From Planctomycetota bacterium (GTDB lineage: Bacteria > Planctomycetota > Planctomycetia > Pirellulales > UBA1268), in NCBI GenBank assembly GCA_003671185.1, contig QWPN01000143.1:1-37879 (forward strand): a DNA stretch of 37,879 bases, read 5' to 3'. Each line of letters opens with the position of its first letter. Position 1 is the stretch's first letter. Positions 30,722-37,767 of this stretch are shown here, one piece after another. The position numbers were made by a program, and so were the translations under genes. Below the pieces are notes generated by a model that ran no database searches, was not told the origin of the DNA, and saw nothing but the letters and a program-made list of their open reading frames with translations.

Positions 30722-30744
30722 AGTGGGCGACGAGGGACTCGAAC
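30722..30744 (+). other. Left attachment core (remnant of tRNA-Val 3' end)
   Basis: A 23-bp sequence identical to the right core, starting AGTGGGCGAC. It corresponds to the T-arm and acceptor 3' strand of the tRNA on the minus strand. No tRNA 5' part is present here, so it is a truncated duplicate. Confidence 0.9.
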
Positions 30745-30923
30745 GGCCCACGTCTGGCCCGAGAAAAACGCGACATCCGCGAGCAGGCGACGCGCAATCC
30801 GACGCGCGCACTCAACTCCAGGCCATGGCGGTTGCCTGGAGCCGGCTGCCACCGGCAGGCCGGCGGCGGATCGTGGAGGTGATCCGCCACGAGTTCGAGC
30901 GGACGATCCGCCCTGGCTCGTGA
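30723..30923 (+). other. Frame at the left end, possible integrase tail in the circular form
   Basis: This 66-codon frame begins inside the att core and continues the same reading phase as the integrase at the right end (both read VGDEGLE across the core). It then reads GDAQSDAR, which also occurs inside the integrase tail, and a helix-like end (AVAWSRLPPAGRRRIVEVIRHEFERTIRPGS). No good ribosome binding site precedes it in the integrated form. In a circular element it would be fused to the integrase. It could also be a remnant of an older integrase end. Confidence 0.4.
30785..30809 (+). repeat. 25-bp direct repeat, left copy (arm-type site candidate)
   Basis: Identical over 25 bp to 37536-37560; both start AGGCGACGCG. 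It lies 40 bp inside the left core. Confidence 0.8.
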
Positions 30924-30956
30924 TCTGCCACCGCCGATCTGCATGGCTTGCGGTGT

Positions 30957-30971
30957 CCACCTGTACGGTGG
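30957..30971 (+). promoter_or_regulatory. Inverted repeat before the LexA-like gene (operator candidate)
   Basis: CCACC-TGTAC-GGTGG, perfect 5-bp arms, ending four bases before the start codon of the regulator. Its position suggests autoregulation. The octamer CTGTACGG recurs at 32754-32761. Confidence 0.4.
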
Positions 30972-30975
30972 AACC

Positions 30976-31236
30976 ATGGTCACGCAAAAGCCCGCCACGC
31001 AGCGTCCACTGACGCGCCGCCAAAACGAGGTGGTTTGCTTCGTTCGTCGCTTTGTGCGGTCGCGTGGCTTTCCGCCGACGCTCCGTGAGATTGCCGACGA
31101 ACTCGGAGTGAACCATACCGCTGTCGCCGGTCACCTGTTGGCCGCTGAACGTAAAGGCGTTTTACGGCGGTCCGGCCGAACCGCTCGTGGACTCACTCTC
31201 ACCCCAGATGGAGGCAAGAATGGCTGCTCAGGTTGA
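30976..31236 (+). CDS. LexA-like winged-helix DNA-binding protein without peptidase domain
   Basis: 86 residues from ATG 30976 (MVTQKPATQRPLTRRQ). The protein matches the N-terminal DNA-binding domain of LexA: LTRRQNEVVCFVRRFVRSRGFPPTLREIADELGVNHTAVAGHLLAAERKGVLRR, with the helix-turn-helix at TLREIADELG and HTAVAGHLLAAERKG. The C-terminal Ser-Lys auto-peptidase domain of true LexA is absent, so RecA-induced self-cleavage is not expected. It is the first full gene after the left core and overlaps the next gene by 17 bases. It likely controls element genes. Confidence 0.75.
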   Translation: MVTQKPATQRPLTRRQNEVVCFVRRFVRSRGFPPTLREIADELGVNHTAVAGHLLAAERKGVLRRSGRTARGLTLTPDGGKNGCSG

Positions 31237-31747
31237 ACCCGCAGTTGTGGAGAAGAAATCCCGCAGCAGGAACGCGACGCCACCGACGTTCGCCGACATC
31301 GCTGCCAGAAAAATGCGGGACCGCATCGAAGCGTACCGAAAGTATGTTCGCCGAGCGGCTGACGGCGAACAGTTGGATGACGCCGACCTGTCTGATGTCG
31401 CCGACCTGCTGGCGGTTATGTCGCTTCCGGATTATGCGTGGCCGCTGCACGTTGAAGCGACCAAACGTTACGACGTTGTCGCGGCGAAACTGAGGGCGGC
31501 GGTGGACGCCGCTCCAGCGAATCGGGAGCGGAGCCTGCAACTAGGTAAGGAAATTGAAGCCCTCCAGGCAAAGCTGCGGACGCTGTTGGAAGAACGCCGC
31601 AAGGCAGAGGCGGGAGTGAACAAGGGGACTTCGTACAGCCACTCGCTGTCACAAATGGCGGTGGAACATGCTGTGGTTCTCGCCGACATAGACATTGCCG
31701 TGTCGCTGCGGCTGGAGGAACTGAACAAGCGGAGGGCAGCATCGTGA
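31220..31747 (+). CDS. Coiled-coil hypothetical protein
   Basis: 175 residues from ATG 31220, with GGAGG 5 bases upstream; the start overlaps the end of the LexA-like gene. Residues 15-75 are charged and helical (FADIAARKMRDRIEAYRKYVRR, DDADLSDVADLLAVMSLP). Residues about 100-140 form a heptad-like coiled coil (RSLQLGKEIEALQAKLRTLLEERRK). I recognise no family. Coiled-coil proteins of this kind serve scaffolding or phage tail and head functions, but that is a guess. Its stop overlaps the next start (GTGA). Confidence 0.65.
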   Translation: MAAQVEPAVVEKKSRSRNATPPTFADIAARKMRDRIEAYRKYVRRAADGEQLDDADLSDVADLLAVMSLPDYAWPLHVEATKRYDVVAAKLRAAVDAAPANRERSLQLGKEIEALQAKLRTLLEERRKAEAGVNKGTSYSHSLSQMAVEHAVVLADIDIAVSLRLEELNKRRAAS

Positions 31748-32448
31748 TTATTGAAAGAGCCGCATATCACCTGGACGCTACCGCCGTCGCTCACAAACTC
31801 CGCAACGCGCCGGCGTGGGTCAGGAGTTCAAAACCTGCCAAGCGACTTCCAGCGACATCTGCCGCGACGCTGCGGCCCTCGGCGAACACTCCAAGCGTCG
31901 CAGGCTGGCTCGTGGGCTCAGTGGCCCCAGGCGTGTCTGCTCCCGCGTATTCGCCGCAGGATGGGCTGACGATGCCCGAGACGTTCGCCGGCTCCGCCTG
32001 GGCCGGCGTGATGGAGCAGGTTCGCCATGGCGCGAAGCCTGTCATGTTGTGGACGCGACACGCTGGGAAGATGCTGGCCGCCACGAGCATGGGAACGCTG
32101 CGGCTCGAACTCCATCCCGTTATCGGCGTCATGTTTGAGGCGACGATCGAAGCCGGCCCCACGGAGCGGATGCTGCTCGAGGAGTTTGGGCCGGCAGGTG
32201 TAGGAACCTCGGTTGCCTACCACACTCCCACGTTCGCATACGAACAGCGTGAAGGCAGGAGAATCCGAATCGTGACATCCTGCACGGTGGAGCACATTGC
32301 CCTCGTGCGGAAGGATAGCGGTGAACGAGCGTTATTCGCTGCGGCTCGCTGCTTCGCCGTCACGGCCGACAATCGCGGGAGACTGCCGCAGGCGTGGAGC
32401 GACGCGCGGACGAGTTCGTGGAAGTTGATGCGGACCGCTCGCGGCTGA
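31744..32448 (+). CDS. Possible HK97 prohead-protease-like protein
   Basis: 234 residues from GTG 31744, overlapping the stop of the coiled-coil gene. The first 70 residues are Ala/Ser/Pro-rich and look unstructured. The core resembles U35/HK97 prohead proteases: RHAGKMLAATSMGTLRLELHPVIGVMFEATI, then LLEEFGPAGVGTSVAYHTPTF and IVTSCTVEHIALVRKDSG, with a His, Ser and Glu in roughly the order of that family. The resemblance is motif level only. No capsid, portal or terminase gene accompanies it, so it could serve a satellite that remodels a helper capsid, or have been repurposed. Confidence 0.45.
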   Translation: MIIERAAYHLDATAVAHKLRNAPAWVRSSKPAKRLPATSAATLRPSANTPSVAGWLVGSVAPGVSAPAYSPQDGLTMPETFAGSAWAGVMEQVRHGAKPVMLWTRHAGKMLAATSMGTLRLELHPVIGVMFEATIEAGPTERMLLEEFGPAGVGTSVAYHTPTFAYEQREGRRIRIVTSCTVEHIALVRKDSGERALFAAARCFAVTADNRGRLPQAWSDARTSSWKLMRTARG

Positions 32449-32888
32449 GCGTTCGCGTGGTGTCGATGTTGCAACGCCACAGGATCCCGCAGGTACGGTG
32501 CAGGGTGGTCGCAGACACGGGCTGTGCCGACACGAAAAACCACGGTCGCCCGCTCTGCGTAGATTCCGTTGAAATTGGAAGTTTCGACTTCTCGAACGAT
32601 TGACGCCAGCCGCCGGCGATAGCCAAAAGTTGCAATTTCGGCCACGCATACGCGTGATGGAACCGTGGGGTTTAGCTGGCGTTTTTAGCCTATTCGGCGA
32701 CCCGCCCTTCCCGGTGGCTGTTTGTGCCGCTGAATATGCACGCCCGTACACGTCTGTACGGCCGTGACCCTTAAAAGGCCGTAAGGTTCGCTCGGGGAAC
32801 TGCAAGGGTCGTGGGGTGGTTTTGTCTGTTCGGTAGGTAGCGATTCATGCGTGATCGTGAACCGCCGTTACCTCCAGGAGAACAGACA
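32449..32888. other. 440-bp gap inside the element with hairpins
   Basis: A weak frame from 32394 to 32603 overlaps the previous gene and lacks a good start. The gap holds a UUCG-type hairpin (32578-32591, GAAGT-TTCG-ACTTC) and two overlapping inverted repeats at 32745-32783. It is the likely control region of the downstream HTH and replication genes. Confidence 0.5.
32745..32783 (+). repeat. Two overlapping inverted repeats
   Basis: CGTACA-CGTC-TGTACG (32745-32760) is a perfect 6-bp stem with a 4-base loop. TACGGCC and GGCCGTA (32757-32763, 32777-32783) form a second 7-bp stem across 13 bases. They share bases, so only one can form at a time. They precede the first HTH gene. Confidence 0.5.
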
Positions 32889-33101
32889 GTGGTTGAACGA
32901 CATCTCACGGCGCGCGAACTCGCCGCGCTCACTGGCATCCGCGAAGGCACTCTCGCCGCGTGGCGGTCGCGCGAAAACAAGCGACCGGATTCCAAGCCCA
33001 TCGGCCCCAGGTGGAAGCGATTCGGCCGCGCCGTTCGCTATCCAGAATCCGGCGTTTCCGAGTGGATGGGCCAGCGTGAATTGCGGCCATTCGTGAAGTG
33101 A
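32889..33101 (+). CDS. Excisionase-like HTH protein 1
   Basis: 70 residues from GTG 32889 (VVERHLTARELAALTG), chosen because AGGAG lies 8 bases upstream. An earlier in-frame ATG at 32847 gives 84 residues but has a weaker ribosome binding site. The helix-turn-helix is LTARELAALTGIREGTLAAWRSREN, followed by RFGRAVRYPESGVSEWMG, the typical wing and end helix of MerR/excisionase (Xis)-type proteins. Such proteins bend DNA at att sites or act as repressors. A second similar gene lies 79 bp downstream. Confidence 0.7.
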   Translation: MVERHLTARELAALTGIREGTLAAWRSRENKRPDSKPIGPRWKRFGRAVRYPESGVSEWMGQRELRPFVK

Positions 33102-33180
33102 TTCCCAAAAGCGAACGAGCCGCCGGTCGTGACCCGGCGGCCCTGAGTTCGCACAACACCACCACGTCATGGAGCGACGC

Positions 33181-33417
33181 ATGGTTCCCTCAGAATACAA
33201 CACCTCGGCAACGGCGCGAGACGCCGATCCGCTCGCGTTGCGACCACGCGAGGCTGCCCAAGCCCTGGGAATCAGTGAACGAACCTTGTGGTCGCTCACG
33301 AAGGCCGGGAAGGTCCCGTTCGTGCGGTTCGGCAAGGCCGTCCGCTATCCCGTTCACCTGCTGCGTCGGTCGCTGGAAGAACAATCCCGCGTCGCGGAGG
33401 TGGCCTCCCATGAGTGA
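33181..33417 (+). CDS. Excisionase-like HTH protein 2
   Basis: 78 residues from ATG 33181, with GGAG 6 bases upstream; ATG 33169 in frame is an alternative. The domain LRPREAAQALGISERTLWSLTKAGKVPFVRFGKAVRYPVHLLRRSLEEQ matches HTH_17-type (PF12728) DNA-binding proteins: helix 2 and 3 at AAQALGISERTLW, wing at VRFGKAVRYP. It shares FGxAVRYP with protein 1, so the two could form a related pair with different targets. The next gene overlaps its end. Confidence 0.75.
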   Translation: MVPSEYNTSATARDADPLALRPREAAQALGISERTLWSLTKAGKVPFVRFGKAVRYPVHLLRRSLEEQSRVAEVASHE

Positions 33418-33814
33418 CCACCGCGACATCTTCACCGAGTCTCGAACGCTCACGCTCCAGGCCATCGTGTTCCGAGCCCTGCGGGATCGTGGCCTGGAAC
33501 CTGAGTTGAGCGACACCTCGGCAACGCGCGTCCAGCCGGCTGAGGACATCCAGGAACAGTGGTTCCGCATCCTTGTGAGCACCGACATCGTGGCCCACCT
33601 GCGGTCCACGATCGGTCTGGAGGAGTTCGAGCGTCGCTGGGTTCACGGCGTGGTGGATGCCGTCTGTCGCCGCCACGAGCGGCGGCAGCGGCAGATTGTG
33701 AACCGTCGCTCCATGGCCGTCGCTCACGAGCCGGCCCTCGTCTCCACGAGCACCGCGACAGTGACCGCCACCACCGTGGTGTTCCGCCGCAGGACCGGAG
33801 GCGCGCATGGCTGA
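33410..33814 (+). CDS. Small hypothetical protein of the replication module
   Basis: 134 residues from ATG 33410 (GGAGG 9 bases upstream), overlapping the HTH gene. It starts MSDHRDIFTESRTLTLQAIVFRALRD; the central part is helical, with EFERRWVHGVVDAVCRRHERRQRQIVNRR being strongly basic, so nucleic acid binding is possible. The C-terminus is Thr/Val-rich. I do not recognise a family. A longer reading of the frame from 33098 overlaps the HTH gene and is rejected. Its stop overlaps the start of the ATPase gene, so it is probably made together with it. Confidence 0.6.
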   Translation: MSDHRDIFTESRTLTLQAIVFRALRDRGLEPELSDTSATRVQPAEDIQEQWFRILVSTDIVAHLRSTIGLEEFERRWVHGVVDAVCRRHERRQRQIVNRRSMAVAHEPALVSTSTATVTATTVVFRRRTGGAHG

Positions 33815-34922
33815 TAACTCCACCATGGCGATCGACTGGGAGCCCATCGGCACGGGCGGCCGGGCGCGGCTCATCGTCACCGACGCGACCGGCGCGACGG
33901 TGGACATCGACACGGCCGACTTGTCGCGGGCTGCGGACCGCGAGGCCGTGGCCCGCAGGCTGGCCTCCAGGCTGACGAACACGCCCGTGGCCGACATCCA
34001 GGCCCACCTGCTGGCAATCGCCCAGGAGCGTTGTGGGCTGGCTGCCGAACCGCCGGCCCGCATCCCCACGCTCCGCGATGCCGTGGAGGCGTGGCGGGCC
34101 ACGGAGGCCACGCCAGTGGTGGAGACAGGGTTTGGCCCCCTGGATGCCCTCGGAGGCGGCGGGCTGGCCCTGGGCAGCGTCACGGTGATCGCGGCACCGC
34201 CCAGCGTGGGCAAGAGCGCGTTAGGGCTCCAGGCCGCCCTGGGCGCGGTGTCGCTGGACGCGAACCTGCGTGTGGCCTGGGCGGCCGGCGAGATGTCGAT
34301 GGAAGCAATCGCCCGCCGTGCGATCTGCCGGTGGTCCGCAGATCGGCAGCCTGTGTCGATGTCGCGGGCTGCTGCTCGAACTCCAGGTTCACAGGCGACG
34401 GCGGACGAGCTCGTGGAGGCTGTCGGCGACAGGTTCCATATTCTCCAGCCGCCGCTCACGGCGGATCGCCTGGAGGCCGCGATCGACACCACGCGGGCAT
34501 CGCTCGTGGTGATCGACTACATCCAACTCGTCTCGCTGGCGGGGGCAATCGACAGGCGGGCCGAGGTGGACGGGCTCGTGAAACGAGTTCGAGCGTTCAC
34601 CCTGGAGAAGAACTGCGCCACCATTGTCGTGTCGAACGTGGCGAAGAACGTGTCGGGCGAGACGCGGATCGGAGCCATTGGGAAAGAGAGCAGCGAACTC
34701 GACTTCATGGCGGATCTGTTCCTGCTGGGCATCGCAGACGAGCACGAGGACGAACGTGGCCTCCGTGCCGTCCGCTGGAAAGTGGCGAAAAATCGCCACG
34801 GGCCATGCCATGACCTGGAGACGCTGTTCGATGGCAGCCTCCAGACCTTCACCCCATCTGGGCCGCAACCGCTCGAGGAGTTCGCAGACTTCGCGCCCAA
34901 GCCTCCGAGGACGCGCAAGTGA
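33807..34922 (+). CDS. DnaB-type replicative helicase-like ATPase
   Basis: 371 residues from ATG 33807, with GGAGG 6 bases upstream. After an N-terminal part of about 85 residues and a linker, a RecA-fold ATPase of the DnaB C-terminal type: TGFGPLDALGGGGLALGSVTVIAAPPSVGKSAL (Walker A Lys136), VAWAAGEMSMEAIARRAI, Walker B LVVIDYIQLVS (Asp237), and a motif like GAIGKESSELDFMADLFLLG, followed by VRWKVAKNRHGP. It lacks the DnaB N-terminal helical domain in full, so it could be a phage-type or plasmid-type helicase (RepA-like). It precedes a winged-helix gene and the iterons; role: replication of the element. Confidence 0.8.
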   Translation: MADNSTMAIDWEPIGTGGRARLIVTDATGATVDIDTADLSRAADREAVARRLASRLTNTPVADIQAHLLAIAQERCGLAAEPPARIPTLRDAVEAWRATEATPVVETGFGPLDALGGGGLALGSVTVIAAPPSVGKSALGLQAALGAVSLDANLRVAWAAGEMSMEAIARRAICRWSADRQPVSMSRAAARTPGSQATADELVEAVGDRFHILQPPLTADRLEAAIDTTRASLVVIDYIQLVSLAGAIDRRAEVDGLVKRVRAFTLEKNCATIVVSNVAKNVSGETRIGAIGKESSELDFMADLFLLGIADEHEDERGLRAVRWKVAKNRHGPCHDLETLFDGSLQTFTPSGPQPLEEFADFAPKPPRTRK

Positions 34923-35284
34923 GCAGGCCCGCGAAGCAGCCGCACAAGCGTGGGGAACTCCACCGCCGCGTCTCCGCCATCATCCAGGCGGGCGTGTTCG
35001 CAGCGATGCCACGGCCTGGACTCGTGGTGTTCCTCCAGGCCCGCCAGTGGGCCGACTTCGCCACCTGCCGCCTCACGGTGTCGCTGCGACGGTTGGCCTC
35101 CGAGTGTGGAATCGGGCTGAGTACCGCCAAACGTGGAGTGGATGCTCTCGTGGCCGCAGGTGTTCTCACTGAGCGGCCCAACAAACGAACAGACTTCCGC
35201 GTGTTCGAGGTGACGAGGCCCAGGCGACGCAAGCAGCGGCAGCCGTCAACGCGCGACGATCGCGGAGGCGACAGGCCATGGTGA
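34919..35284 (+). CDS. Winged-helix protein, candidate replication initiator
   Basis: 121 residues from GTG 34919, overlapping the ATPase stop (GTGA). Residues about 15-75 carry a helix-turn-helix: RLTVSLRRLASECGIGLSTAKRGVDALVAAGVLTERP, with a wing RTDFRVFEVT. Such HTH domains occur in replication initiators and in DnaD/phage replication proteins. The basic C-terminus (RPRRRKQRQPS) suits DNA contact. The three iteron-like repeats lie immediately downstream of its stop, where an initiator or regulator would bind. No nicking or primase motif is visible. Confidence 0.65.
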   Translation: MSRPAKQPHKRGELHRRVSAIIQAGVFAAMPRPGLVVFLQARQWADFATCRLTVSLRRLASECGIGLSTAKRGVDALVAAGVLTERPNKRTDFRVFEVTRPRRRKQRQPSTRDDRGGDRPW

Positions 35285-35309
35285 ACGCCACGAGGCATCC
35301 GCTGCGGGT

Positions 35310-35371
35310 GTTCCACCTGGGGGAACAGGGTGTTCCACCTGGGGGAACAGCGCGTTCCACCTGGGGGAACA
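35310..35371 (+). repeat. Three iteron-like dyad repeats, 22-bp period
   Basis: GTTCCACCTGGGGGAACA occurs at 35310-35327, 35332-35349 and 35354-35371, identical over 18 bases with 4-base spacers that differ. Each unit is itself a dyad (GTTCC ... GGAAC). A 22-bp period is two helical turns, so all sites face one side of the helix. This is the form of plasmid iterons or operators. Confidence 0.9.
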
Positions 35372-35380
35372 TAGATCATG

Positions 35381-35411
35381 GATTCCTCCATGGATTCACC
35401 ATGGAGGAATC
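35381..35411 (+). repeat. Perfect 13-bp palindrome with 5-base loop
   Basis: GATTCCTCCATGG-ATTCA-CCATGGAGGAATC, ten bases after the iterons. There is no T-tract, so it is more likely part of a replication origin or a recognition site than a terminator. Confidence 0.85.
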
Positions 35412-35527
35412 GGAATCCACGGCGCGGACATCGACTTCGCCCCTATGGGGGCTTGTCGCTGCCGCTCTAGGAAGTGGGGGCCGCTGGGGATCCCACGAGT
35501 TCGAGGAACGGCACGGAGGCTAATGCC

Positions 35528-36301
35528 ATGGGCGAGTTGACGTTGACGGGCGAGACGTTGGTGGTGGCGATCCGCACGGAGCACGAGGCCGCATCTGCGG
35601 CGGCGCGTTCGGCCCTGGAACACGCGCTAGAGTGCGGCCGGCTGCTGGCCCAGGCGAGGGCCGAGGTTCCGCATGGCTCGTGGGAGAACTACCTCACCGA
35701 CAGCTGCGGCATCGCTCCACGGACGGGCCGCCTGTACCTGCGGCTCCACGCTCACCGCGACCGGCTTGGAAATCGGCAACGCGTTGCCGGTTTGACGGTC
35801 CGTGAGGCGGCGAAGTTGGTCGCGGAGCCCAGGCCAAAGGTGGTGATGGTTGAGCCGGCCTGCGAACTGAGGTTGCGAACGCCCGAGTGGTATCGGCCTG
35901 GACACCGCCACTACGGAGAGCATCCATCGGGATGGTTTTTCGAGGTATGGCCGCATCCGGCTGGCGAACAGTGGGCCCACTTCTACATCTGCTCACCGAC
36001 AAGCGGCTATCCAGGTGACGAGGGCGGAGGAACACTCACCGGTCCGAAACGAGGTATTCGTGTCGATGCGCTCGAGTGGGCGATGGGTATGCAGGCCGCT
36101 AACGGCATGCCTTCGTTGGACCATGCTGAATGGTCGATCAGCGATTCGCTGTGCGACACGGATGATGCGAGCGACGCGATCGCAAGCCGGTTTAAGCACT
36201 ACAACACGCTACTGTTCGCAGGTGACGAGGACTACCGCCGGCGTGGCCTGGGTATTGAACTCTGCGGCAGTCGTGCCGCGTCTCGTGCGACCACTGCGTA
36301 G
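35528..36301 (+). CDS. DUF3102-like protein of the element
   Basis: 257 residues from ATG 35528 with GGAGG 8 bases upstream. The N-terminal half (EHEAASAAARSALEHALECGRLLAQARAEVPHGSWENYLTDSCGIAPRTGRLYLRLH) fits DUF3102, a domain common in plasmid and phage accessory proteins. The C-terminal half has many aromatic and acidic residues (EWYRPGHRHYGEHPSGWFFEVWPHP and SDSLCDTDDASDAIASRFKHYNTLLFAGDED) and is not recognised. It lies between the origin-like repeats and the integrase and may serve replication or partition. Confidence 0.6.
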   Translation: MGELTLTGETLVVAIRTEHEAASAAARSALEHALECGRLLAQARAEVPHGSWENYLTDSCGIAPRTGRLYLRLHAHRDRLGNRQRVAGLTVREAAKLVAEPRPKVVMVEPACELRLRTPEWYRPGHRHYGEHPSGWFFEVWPHPAGEQWAHFYICSPTSGYPGDEGGGTLTGPKRGIRVDALEWAMGMQAANGMPSLDHAEWSISDSLCDTDDASDAIASRFKHYNTLLFAGDEDYRRRGLGIELCGSRAASRATTA

Positions 36302-36378
36302 TCGCTCCATCTGGCCTTGAACCATTCGGCAGGATCGCGGATCTTCAACCGTCACCACTTCTGGAGGAGAACACCACC

Positions 36379-37734
36379 ATGGCAAGCCTGAGCACGAACT
36401 CAAATGGTCTGCGTCGTGTCCTGTTTGTGGATGGAGCCGGCGAGCGTCGCGGCGTCCATCTGGGCCGGCTGCCGCAAAAAGCGGCGGAGGCGTTCCTGCG
36501 CCGCGTGGAGGAGTTGAACGCGAACCGCATCGCGGGCGTGTCGAACTCCACCGAGTTGGCCTCGTGGGTGCGTGGGCTGCCAGATTCCATCCACGCGAAA
36601 CTGGAACGAGTGGCCCTCGTGGAACCACGAGCCGCCGCCACCGTGCGGACGGTGGGCGAACTGCTGGACACGTTCGAGCAGCGGGCCGTGGTGAAGCCCT
36701 CCACGCGGAAGGCGTACAAGCAGACGCTGGACAGCCTCCGAGCGTTCCTGGGAGCCGAGACGGCCCTCCAGGCCGTCACGGCGGAGACGGCCGACGCATG
36801 GCGGAAGTGGATCGCCACCGACACCACCTCCGTGGGCCGCAAGCGGGCGACGGCCGACAATCGCCTGTCGCCGGCCACCTGTGCGAAGCGGACGTTTGTG
36901 GCTCGCACGGTGTTCCGCAAGGCCGTCCGCTGGAAGTGGATCGCCACGAGCCCGTTCGAGGGCGTCCAGGCGGGCTCGCAGGCGAACCCGTCGCGGGCGT
37001 TCTACGTCTCGGCCGAGGCCACCACGGCGATCCTAGGCCGCTGCCCAGATGTCGAATGGCGGTCCATTGTGGGGCTCACGAGGTACGCGGGCCTGCGCTG
37101 CCCCAGCGAACTCGCCACGCTCACCTGGGCCGACATCGACTGGGAGGCGGGCCGGCTCACCGTGCGGGCCAGTAAGACCGAACACCACGGTGGAGGCCAT
37201 GCCGTCCGCCACGTTCCGATCTGCCCTGCCCTGCGGGCGATCCTGGAGGAAGCGTTCGAGCAGGCCGCTGAGGGCTCCACGCTCGTTGTGCCACGGACTG
37301 GTTGTGGCAACGTGAACCTGCGGACCACGTTCGAGAAAATCATCACGAGGGCCGGGCTCGTGCCGTGGCCCAGGCTGTTCCAGAATCTACGCGCCTCGTG
37401 CGAGACGGACTGGGTGGAGGCGTACCCTGCCCACGAGGTTGCGGCGTGGATGGGCCACTCGCCTGCGGTCGCTGCGGCCCACTACCTCCAGCGACGCGAC
37501 CACCACTTCCAGGATGTTGTGGCGAACGGCCTGAGAGGCGACGCGCAATCCGACGCGCGCGGCGCACAAAATCGAGCGCAGCAGGTTCCCGCAAGAAATC
37601 GCAAGGAACCGCAGCCGTCGCCGGAAGATGATGCCCTGCTTCGGTTTATGCGAACCTTTGCGGCATCATGCGGCGAACTGAACAAGTATTCAGTGGGCGA
37701 CGAGGGACTCGAACCCCCAACCCCCTCGGTGTAA
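36379..37734 (+). CDS. Tyrosine integrase of the tRNA-Val element
   Basis: 451 residues from ATG 36379, with GGAGGAG about 8 bases upstream. The N-terminal part (to about residue 200) contains a SAM-like core-binding domain (TVGELLDTFEQRAVVKPSTRKAYKQTLDSLRAFLG). Catalytic residues: Arg240 (YAGLRCPSELATLTW), Lys266 (RASKTEHHGG), Arg338 (FQNLRASCETDW; the usual His is Asn336), His360 (AAWMGHSPAV) and the nucleophile Tyr369 (AAHYLQRRD). The last 80 residues are poorly conserved and cross a 25-bp repeat and the att core, ending inside the tRNA gene on the other strand (SVGDEGLEPPTPSV). The exact functional C-terminus is uncertain. Confidence 0.92.
   Translation: MASLSTNSNGLRRVLFVDGAGERRGVHLGRLPQKAAEAFLRRVEELNANRIAGVSNSTELASWVRGLPDSIHAKLERVALVEPRAAATVRTVGELLDTFEQRAVVKPSTRKAYKQTLDSLRAFLGAETALQAVTAETADAWRKWIATDTTSVGRKRATADNRLSPATCAKRTFVARTVFRKAVRWKWIATSPFEGVQAGSQANPSRAFYVSAEATTAILGRCPDVEWRSIVGLTRYAGLRCPSELATLTWADIDWEAGRLTVRASKTEHHGGGHAVRHVPICPALRAILEEAFEQAAEGSTLVVPRTGCGNVNLRTTFEKIITRAGLVPWPRLFQNLRASCETDWVEAYPAHEVAAWMGHSPAVAAAHYLQRRDHHFQDVVANGLRGDAQSDARGAQNRAQQVPARNRKEPQPSPEDDALLRFMRTFAASCGELNKYSVGDEGLEPPTPSV
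37536..37560 (+). repeat. 25-bp direct repeat, right copy (arm-type site candidate)
   Basis: Identical to 30785-30809. It lies inside the integrase gene, 131 bp before the right core. Confidence 0.8.
37692..37714 (+). other. Right attachment core (3' end of tRNA-Val)
   Basis: 23 bases identical to the left core; they form the acceptor 3' strand and part of the T-arm of the intact tRNA on the minus strand. Confidence 0.9.
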
Positions 37735-37767
37735 ACGAGGTGCTCTGACCAATTGAGCTAGTCGCCC
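37694..37767 (-). tRNA. tRNA-Val (anticodon TAC)
   Basis: 74 bases on the minus strand: acceptor GGGCGAC paired with GTCGCCC, D-arm GCTC...GAGC, anticodon stem CCTCG/CGAGG with loop TTTACAC (anticodon TAC), a 5-base variable loop and T-arm with TTCGAGT. The discriminator is A and no CCA is encoded. The integrase gene ends within it on the opposite strand. Its 3' end is the integration target of the 7-kb element. Confidence 0.95.

Follow-up and report, generated by a model that had tools for sequence, protein, structure and literature searches.

P4-like satellites carry an alpha primase, sid and psu, and in the integration-dependent immunity of mycobacteriophages the attachment site attP lies in the repressor gene, where integration trims the repressor. 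We compared these and other described systems with a 6,970-bp element of a planctomycete, located in contig QWPN01000143.1 (assembly GCA_003671185.1), whose entire 37,879 bp are referred to below as the window. The element has an integrase and replication genes of its own without a full structural set, as phage satellites in general do, and based on sequence comparisons we read it, with a probability of roughly 0.74, as an integrated, capsid-less, helper-dependent phage satellite. It is a real tRNA-borne element and most likely a satellite without capsid genes, of a kind that we did not find described. None of the P4 families was among the matches of its ten proteins. As in mycobacteriophage immunity, integration trims a phage protein through an attP within a gene; that protein is the repressor there and the integrase here.

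Like the phage-inducible chromosomal islands (PICIs) and Staphylococcus aureus pathogenicity islands (SaPIs), the element has an integrase, an excisionase-type helix-turn-helix (HTH) protein and its own replication genes, has no coat-protein gene, and has relatives with a small terminase subunit (TerS). Unlike them, it resides in a planctomycete and carries an S78 prohead protease with a helical protein; its DnaB-like helicase and small winged-helix protein also stand in place of the PICI replication genes. The literature searched, which left out most subscription papers, yielded no PICI with such a protease-helical protein pair and, as a weak negative, no phage satellite of planctomycetes. 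Capsid-forming PICIs (cfPICIs) include genes for HNH, TerS and a head maturation protease according to the accessible part of their description (PMC10690885), and this set recurs in L092; however, their own capsid, portal and large terminase (TerL) were found neither in the element nor in its relatives L091, L092 and L156 (our designations, as are the other L and G numbers). Sid and TcaP are external scaffolds and Ccm is a capsid homologue, as far as the accessible text of the sources goes (PMC5052747, PMC10945586). The element may resemble P4, the PICI-like elements (PLE) and cos-type SaPIs in that a helper head would be remodelled by the satellite, although a protease and a helical protein stand in place of Sid, TcaP or Ccm. 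In the accessible text of PMC10803314, phage-inducible chromosomal minimalist islands (PICMIs) sit at fis and combine int and alpA with a DUF3987/DUF5906 primase. An integrase and a PF12728 protein are present here (PF12728 is one of two AlpA models in that text), but no such primase appeared in general scans of the ten proteins, and insertion is at tRNA-Val. Finally, the accessible part of a review calls gene-disrupting recombinases exclusively archaeal, the gene being split into N and C parts (PMC8371274). As in these suicidal integrases of the Sulfolobus spindle-shaped virus (SSV) type, the att site lies inside the integrase gene and integration alters the protein. In the SSV type, however, the catalytic domain goes to the C part of the split enzyme, whereas in the window it is left intact and the exchange affects no more than the end from residue 439 onward. 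If our reading is true, this would be a bacterial counterpart to such self-gene-editing integrases.

Boundaries and gene content of the element

The element lies between two exact 23-bp repeats, 6,970 bp apart from start to start, one of which is the 3' end of an intact tRNA-Val gene identified by ARAGORN. In the organism's own 2,751,881-bp assembly (85% complete), the 23-mer was found with up to two mismatches at these two positions only, and the reversed control gave 0 matches. An exact 25-bp direct repeat places one copy on either side of the core in attP. The attachment features are as follows:

30722-30744, plus strand: attL core, a 23-bp copy of the tRNA-Val 3' end
37692-37714, plus strand: attR core, inside the intact tRNA gene
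37693-37767, minus strand: tRNA-Val(TAC), the target gene (ARAGORN)
30785-30809, plus strand: P'-side copy of the 25-bp repeat, a candidate arm site for the integrase
37536-37560, plus strand: P-side copy of the 25-bp repeat, within int

The window proteins were scanned with the profiles of Pfam, PHROGs and NCBIfam, and PADLOC was also run. Ten genes were assigned, all on the plus strand, with five overlaps (31236/31187, 31747/31744, 33417/33410, 33814/33807 and 34922/34919):

30976-31236, plus strand: gene A, 86 aa, a winged-helix DNA-binding domain of the LexA type (PF01726, 1.2e-18)
31187-31747, plus strand: gene B, helical protein of at most 186 aa (homologue on L107 at 40%)
31744-32448, plus strand: gene C, divergent S78 prohead protease (homologues and profile comparison)
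32847-33101, plus strand: gene D, weakly HTH_17-like (PF12728, 7.5e-5, below the cut-off; phrog_66, 8.6e-5)
33169-33417, plus strand: gene E, excisionase-type HTH protein, candidate Xis (PF12728, 4.8e-10; TIGR01764, 1.7e-7)
33410-33814, plus strand: gene F, family not recognised (homologues precede the helicase in L034, L091 and L092, 47-54%)
33807-34922, plus strand: gene G, DnaB_C-type helicase/ATPase, 371 aa (PF03796, 2.5e-21)
34919-35284, plus strand: gene H, winged-helix protein, candidate origin-binding initiator (phrog_270, replication initiation, weak at 3.3e-4)
35528-36301, plus strand: gene I, DUF3102 protein, accessory (PF11300, 5.9e-6)
36379-37734, plus strand: gene J, tyrosine integrase (PF00589, 3.3e-10; phrog_1, 4.1e-32)

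Gene A is without the protease part of LexA and is a candidate regulator, and for gene B an alternative ATG start is possible at 31220. Genes B, C and F gave no trustworthy family in the Pfam, PHROGs and NCBIfam scans. Large terminase, portal, capsid and tail genes were absent among the ten assigned genes, and tblastn with TerS, TerL, portal, S78 protease and capsid of the phage L160 (see below) found none of them in the element; the S78 protease of the window is missed by tblastn because gene C is too divergent. Since there is no coat-protein gene, the element probably travels in the coat of another virus.

The original prediction, made from the sequence letters, had proposed most of this anatomy: the identical 23-bp cores, the integrase adjoining the tRNA, the overlapping genes on a single strand, the LexA-like regulator, the HTH pair (D being the weak member), the DnaB-type ATPase, the winged-helix protein, and the lack of capsid, terminase and portal genes. 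All of these were borne out. The 25-bp arm repeats, and a hairpin beside the iterons, are additions to it. About 400 bp between genes C and D (32449-32846) hold no assigned gene and are a possible site for regulation or packaging. A defence island was rejected, as PADLOC gave only three weak HTH-type matches.

Packaging genes in related IMG/VR contigs

Terminal repeats were found in three of the 58 IMG/VR loci tested, 16 of which were excerpts, so that 42 whole contigs were really tested. The three are L091 (7,437 bp, with an exact direct terminal repeat of 123 bp and thus a unit of 7,314 bp), L092 (7,355 bp, repeat 69 bp, unit 7,286 bp) and L156, which was found through its protease (7,388 bp, repeat 88 bp, unit 7,300 bp). 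They come from the IMG/VR samples 3300013372, 3300042691 and 3300043464, and L091 and L092 were retrieved by searching with G. Judging from these repeats, L091 and L092 are probably circles. Identities to the window in L091 and L092, respectively, are 73 and 69% for G, 82 and 73% for H, and 83 and 78% for J; E and F are present too. Gene I is present in L091, was not found in L092, and is represented by a 30-aa piece in the chromosomal relative L034. The integrase of L156 is a different one, its 619-aa protein matches nothing in Pfam, and only its packaging genes are in common with L091 and L092.

These packaging genes comprise, in L092, an HNH gene (PF01844), TerS (PF05119, 6.7e-23), a coil protein and an S78 protease (PF04586, 2.9e-39); L091 and L156 have homologues of the L092 TerS, coil protein and protease. 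TerL, portal and capsid of L160 were not found by tblastn in the three contigs, while TerS and S78 were. In the window, gene A sits ahead of B, in the position that TerS holds in L091 and L092.

To place this arrangement among phages, we considered 54 IMG/VR contigs matched by TerS or the protease, with L091 and L092 excluded (L156 was retrieved by its protease and almost every other contig by TerS). Both genes were matched in 44, and the starts of the two matches are 2,988-4,138 bp apart in 43 of these, compared with 1,459 bp in L156 and ~1.3 kb in L091 and L092. When eight of the 43 wide-spaced contigs were tested, TerL, portal and capsid were present in all eight; in L160, which belongs to the 43, Pfam names all three. 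If our reading is true, the candidate helpers are HK97-type phages like L160, with HNH, TerS, TerL, portal, S78 protease and capsid in a row, a class suggested by the shared HNH, TerS and protease.

The phages L160 and L176 are 97-99% identical in TerL, portal, protease and capsid and just 42% in TerS, which looks like TerS swapping; the L160 TerS is ~51% identical to the satellite TerS, and an HNH protein of L160 is 76% identical to that of L092. Elements with TerS at a tRNA gene also occur in L046, from the same genus (46-bp repeat; Terminase_4, 8.8e-16), and in L053, from the same order (19-bp repeat; TerS 30% identical).

The helical protein and the prohead protease

The prohead-protease-like protein of the original prediction was corroborated through its relatives. 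The homologue of C on L107 (P0018) matches Peptidase_S78 at 1.3e-7, and the C family aligns with canonical proteases in hhalign with 97.2% probability (E 3e-11). H106 and S156, which we take to be the catalytic residues, are invariant across the six sequences of the C alignment. AlphaFold predicts B as all-helical (pLDDT 71), and the B profile matches the coil protein family of L091, L092 and L156 at 96.4%; B is a candidate capsid-assembly factor. The pairing of a helical protein with a protease in the absence of a capsid gene stands out. Homologues of B and C are also found alongside other replication genes in L156, and on L108 and L110, the contigs of L108 and L110 ending near these genes. 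IMG/VR searches with P0003, the protein of gene C, and with the B profile (A6) gave no relative, and in one IMG/VR search the coil-protein profile matched only L091, L092 and L156. L099 was rejected as a further element of this kind: helical and protease-like proteins were seen by eye after its integrase tail, and the profiles gave 0.8% and 2.3%.

Replication module

Downstream of gene H are two features of a putative origin:

35306-35371, plus strand: three 22-bp iterons with the core GTTCCACCTGGGGGAAC
35381-35411, no strand assigned: hairpin with a 13-bp stem, adjoining the iterons

The 17-bp iteron core, a near-palindrome, has 6 matches with up to three mismatches when both strands are counted, against 0.14 expected, and 0 of 100 shuffles reached 6, in agreement with the iterons originally predicted. 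The hairpin folds at -15.1 kcal/mol as compared to -6.8 in shuffles (z -4.4; 0 of 200 shuffles as good). In the window, L034, L091, L092 and L045, gene H is followed by iterons that recur every 22 or 23 bp, three or four in each. In the alignment of these five, an inverted repeat of varying length follows the iterons, and a further conserved block beyond it is clear in four (both by eye). L043 and L044 have tandem repeats of different sequence that come after the winged-helix gene or overlap it, as do L042 and L046 when judged by eye. We infer that H acts as initiator, with the origin at the iterons and loading of the helicase there. For G, H and J compared with L034, the ratio of nonsynonymous to synonymous substitution rates (dN/dS) is 0.20-0.24 (G 0.20), which indicates purifying selection.

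The presence of a replication module would also suit an integrative plasmid that excises, is copied by means of its helicase, initiator and iterons, and moves between cells through transformation or accidental transduction, B and C being carried along by chance; that the window copy is without TerS fits this as well. However, TerS stands beside the same replication genes in L091 and L092, and the B-C homologues recur with other replication genes (L156) and on L108 and L110. In addition, no relaxase or partition family turned up in general library scans of the ten proteins, and when G was compared by tblastn with 72,556 plasmid records, just 6 distant helicases matched. The original prediction had left a choice between integrative plasmid and phage satellite, able to replicate once excised and perhaps in need of a helper; of the two, the satellite is now the better supported, and the plasmid, less favoured in view of TerS in L091 and L092, seems rather unlikely to us.

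The integrase gene and its exchanged C-terminal tail

The reading frame of J enters the tRNA 3' end, with its final 13 codons within the core and the tRNA gene, and in the integrated state it ends GDEGLEPPTPSV. The opposite end of the element holds what appears to be the remainder of the gene:

30723-30923, plus strand: severed C-terminal integrase tail, ending AWSRLPPAGRRRIVEVIRHEFERTIRPGS (35 of 61 residues as in the L092 integrase tail, E 2e-19)

This stretch encodes AWSRLPPAGRRRIVEVIRHEFER. Counting codons puts 30722 and 37692 alike at third positions, and in the circle the tail is therefore predicted to continue the int frame through the core. The L092 integrase (505 aa) continues past the core into AWRRLSPSGRRRIIQIIRDELER, and the tail of the L091 integrase reads AWARLSPAARRRIVQVIRDELER. 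As attP is located within the integrase gene, integration replaces ~60 C-terminal residues by a short tRNA-coded end. The core, at residue 439, comes well after the HYL motif (residues 368-370), whose tyrosine is presumably the nucleophile. When tails were compared in three pairs, over 58-59 codons, dN was below dS, with ratios of ~0.43-0.59. Removal of the tail may shift the integrase away from further integration.

The arm repeats around the core are spaced 219 bp from start to start in L091 and L092, and the same spacing is predicted for the window (156 + 63), so that the predicted window circle agrees with the naturally seen forms. The best 24-base match of the arm repeats was 24 in the window, 22 in L091, 23 in L092 and 21 in L112, versus top shuffles of 19, 18, 18 and 18, respectively; the repeats were not supported in L053 (19 vs. 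18) or L099 (20 vs. 20). This control is lenient because it used single-base shuffles (100 times) and only placements with three anchor matches.

The integrase family is mostly tRNA-linked: at 25 of 40 loci of J relatives that we selected, a tRNA on the opposite strand is overlapped by the int frame; the other 15 are without overlap by the chosen cut-off, and of these L053 misses it by 8 bp and L058 ends with the contig. A tail with statistical support was found in the window, L091 and L092. By eye, the frames suggest a similar integrase split in L053 (tRNA-Ser) and L099 (tRNA-Val CAC) and a full tail in L112; in tblastn with the tails, L053 matched at E 0.82 only, and those of L099 and L112 had no match among those listed.

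Proposed cycle and its weighing

If the element is a satellite, entry of a tailed phage or induction of a prophage would lead Xis and Int to excise the 6,970-bp circle, on which H would bind the iterons and load helicase G. Element DNA would then enter a helper capsid through the large terminase and portal of the helper, both the helper and the packaging being assumed here. The relatives would supply their own TerS and thereby redirect the terminase; as the window copy is without TerS, it would either depend on the TerS of the helper, acting at a pac or cos site that resembles the helper's, or have lost packaging. The B-C pair might act on the assembly of the helper's HK97-type head as an alternative scaffold and protease, or alter the timing at which the scaffold domain of the coat protein is removed. 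After integration, Int would be without its C-terminal tail and possibly biased away from further integration.

A broader proposal, that a planctomycete satellite lineage takes HK97-type heads with a protease and a helical partner, under a packaging limit of ~7.3 kb and with the integrase as a switch, is tentative and, taken as a whole, somewhat doubtful. The switch is the hypothesis that the circle encodes full-length Int and that integration, by removing a conserved C-terminal helix, turns it into a different enzyme. Protease-based head theft and the integrase switch are both hypotheses that the anatomy permits; if true, the former would be head remodelling that employs a protease.

Several observations weigh against the satellite reading. 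Terminal repeats of 69-123 bp fit circles but would also fit concatemers, and membership in IMG/VR is no proof of packaging. The shared length of ~7.3 kb comes from three contigs, two of them closely related, and the window element measures 6,970 bp. The window copy has no TerS (no Terminase_4 match among the window proteins). P0003 matched 0 families in Pfam, PHROGs, NCBIfam and PADLOC, the S78 model missing it, and because direct scans gave nothing, C was placed by homologues and profile comparison only. Its AlphaFold model was unusable (pLDDT 46), and the fold search with B against BFVD and PDB returned 0 matches at E 0.001, hence no recognised fold. To the left of the element lies an S8 peptidase gene; its orthologues (L145-L148) are not accompanied by a tRNA within 1.5 kb, and no empty site flanked on the left as in the window was thus found. 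The element's own genome, at 85% completeness, had 0 matches to the models of TerS, S78, HK97 capsid (PF05065) and TerL (PF03354), and thus no resident helper was seen.

Of the other explanations, a decayed prophage, in which the integration and early genes of a larger phage remain after loss of the late genes, appears very improbable. Protease, TerS and HNH are genes of phage late regions, and as the L108 and L110 contigs end near B and C, larger prophages with both genes may exist; against this, the units of the three terminal-repeat contigs measure 7,314, 7,286 and 7,300 bp and their integration and replication genes are of two kinds, and dN/dS is 0.11-0.49 in 11 of 11 gene pairs (dS for some of them being close to 1 or higher). 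The position of gene A before B, where L091 and L092 have TerS, suggests a satellite that can no longer be packaged and now passes on by vertical inheritance or through other elements, but we give this the smallest chance, given the purifying selection on G, H and J, the retention of H106 and S156 in C, and the existence of TerS-less satellites, some SaPIs relying on helper cos sites according to the accessible parts of PMC10690885 and PMC5052747.

Chromosomal relatives, empty sites and the host genome

A search with G in 146 genomes revealed one close element, L034 (G006:C103, CAMCPF010000103), all others being at most 53% identical. Its identity to the window is 82-83% for G, 83% for H and 84% for J, and its J likewise enters tRNA-Val(TAC), which is followed by aspS. 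Named relatives of the integrase locus are the basis for regarding the host as a planctomycete. Within the bacterial family, aspS was found in 60 of 72 genomes, and tRNA-Val(TAC) adjoins it at 23 of the 30 loci listed. Such an integrase occupies two of these 23; at 14 it is missing over a distance of at least 660 bp, and the sequence at the remaining 7 does not reach far enough to tell. In G020, G001 and G002, a sequence like the integrase end was noticed by eye, unscored by tblastn.

The TerS model matched in 13 of the 72 genomes, S78 in 6 and HK97 capsid in 6, the S78 count being too low because the Pfam model misses gene C; the TerL model matched in 4 of the 13 genomes searched with it. In G022 (94% complete) there are three Terminase_4 places, one of them partial, and no matches to HK97 capsid, S78 or TerL.

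GC content per 1 kb is ~0.68-0.70 in the adjoining left flank; within the element it is 0.62-0.65 over the left third, 0.65-0.71 in the middle and 0.64-0.69 in the right part, so that composition by itself is no marker of the element. In the genome that carries the element, aspS is found close to the beginning of a different contig, which opens with a repeat of the window's end; this fits the same tRNA-aspS order. The repeated stretch extends by eye from 37779 to ~37874, at the window end, recurs near the start of G000:C40 beside aspS, and is the likely cause of the assembly break. A second, distant relative is present in the same genome on contig G000:C64 (L042, L111), which carries a DnaB-like protein (39% identical), a LexA-type HTH protein (36%), a tRNA-Pro, and a tandem repeat 3' of a winged-helix-like frame.

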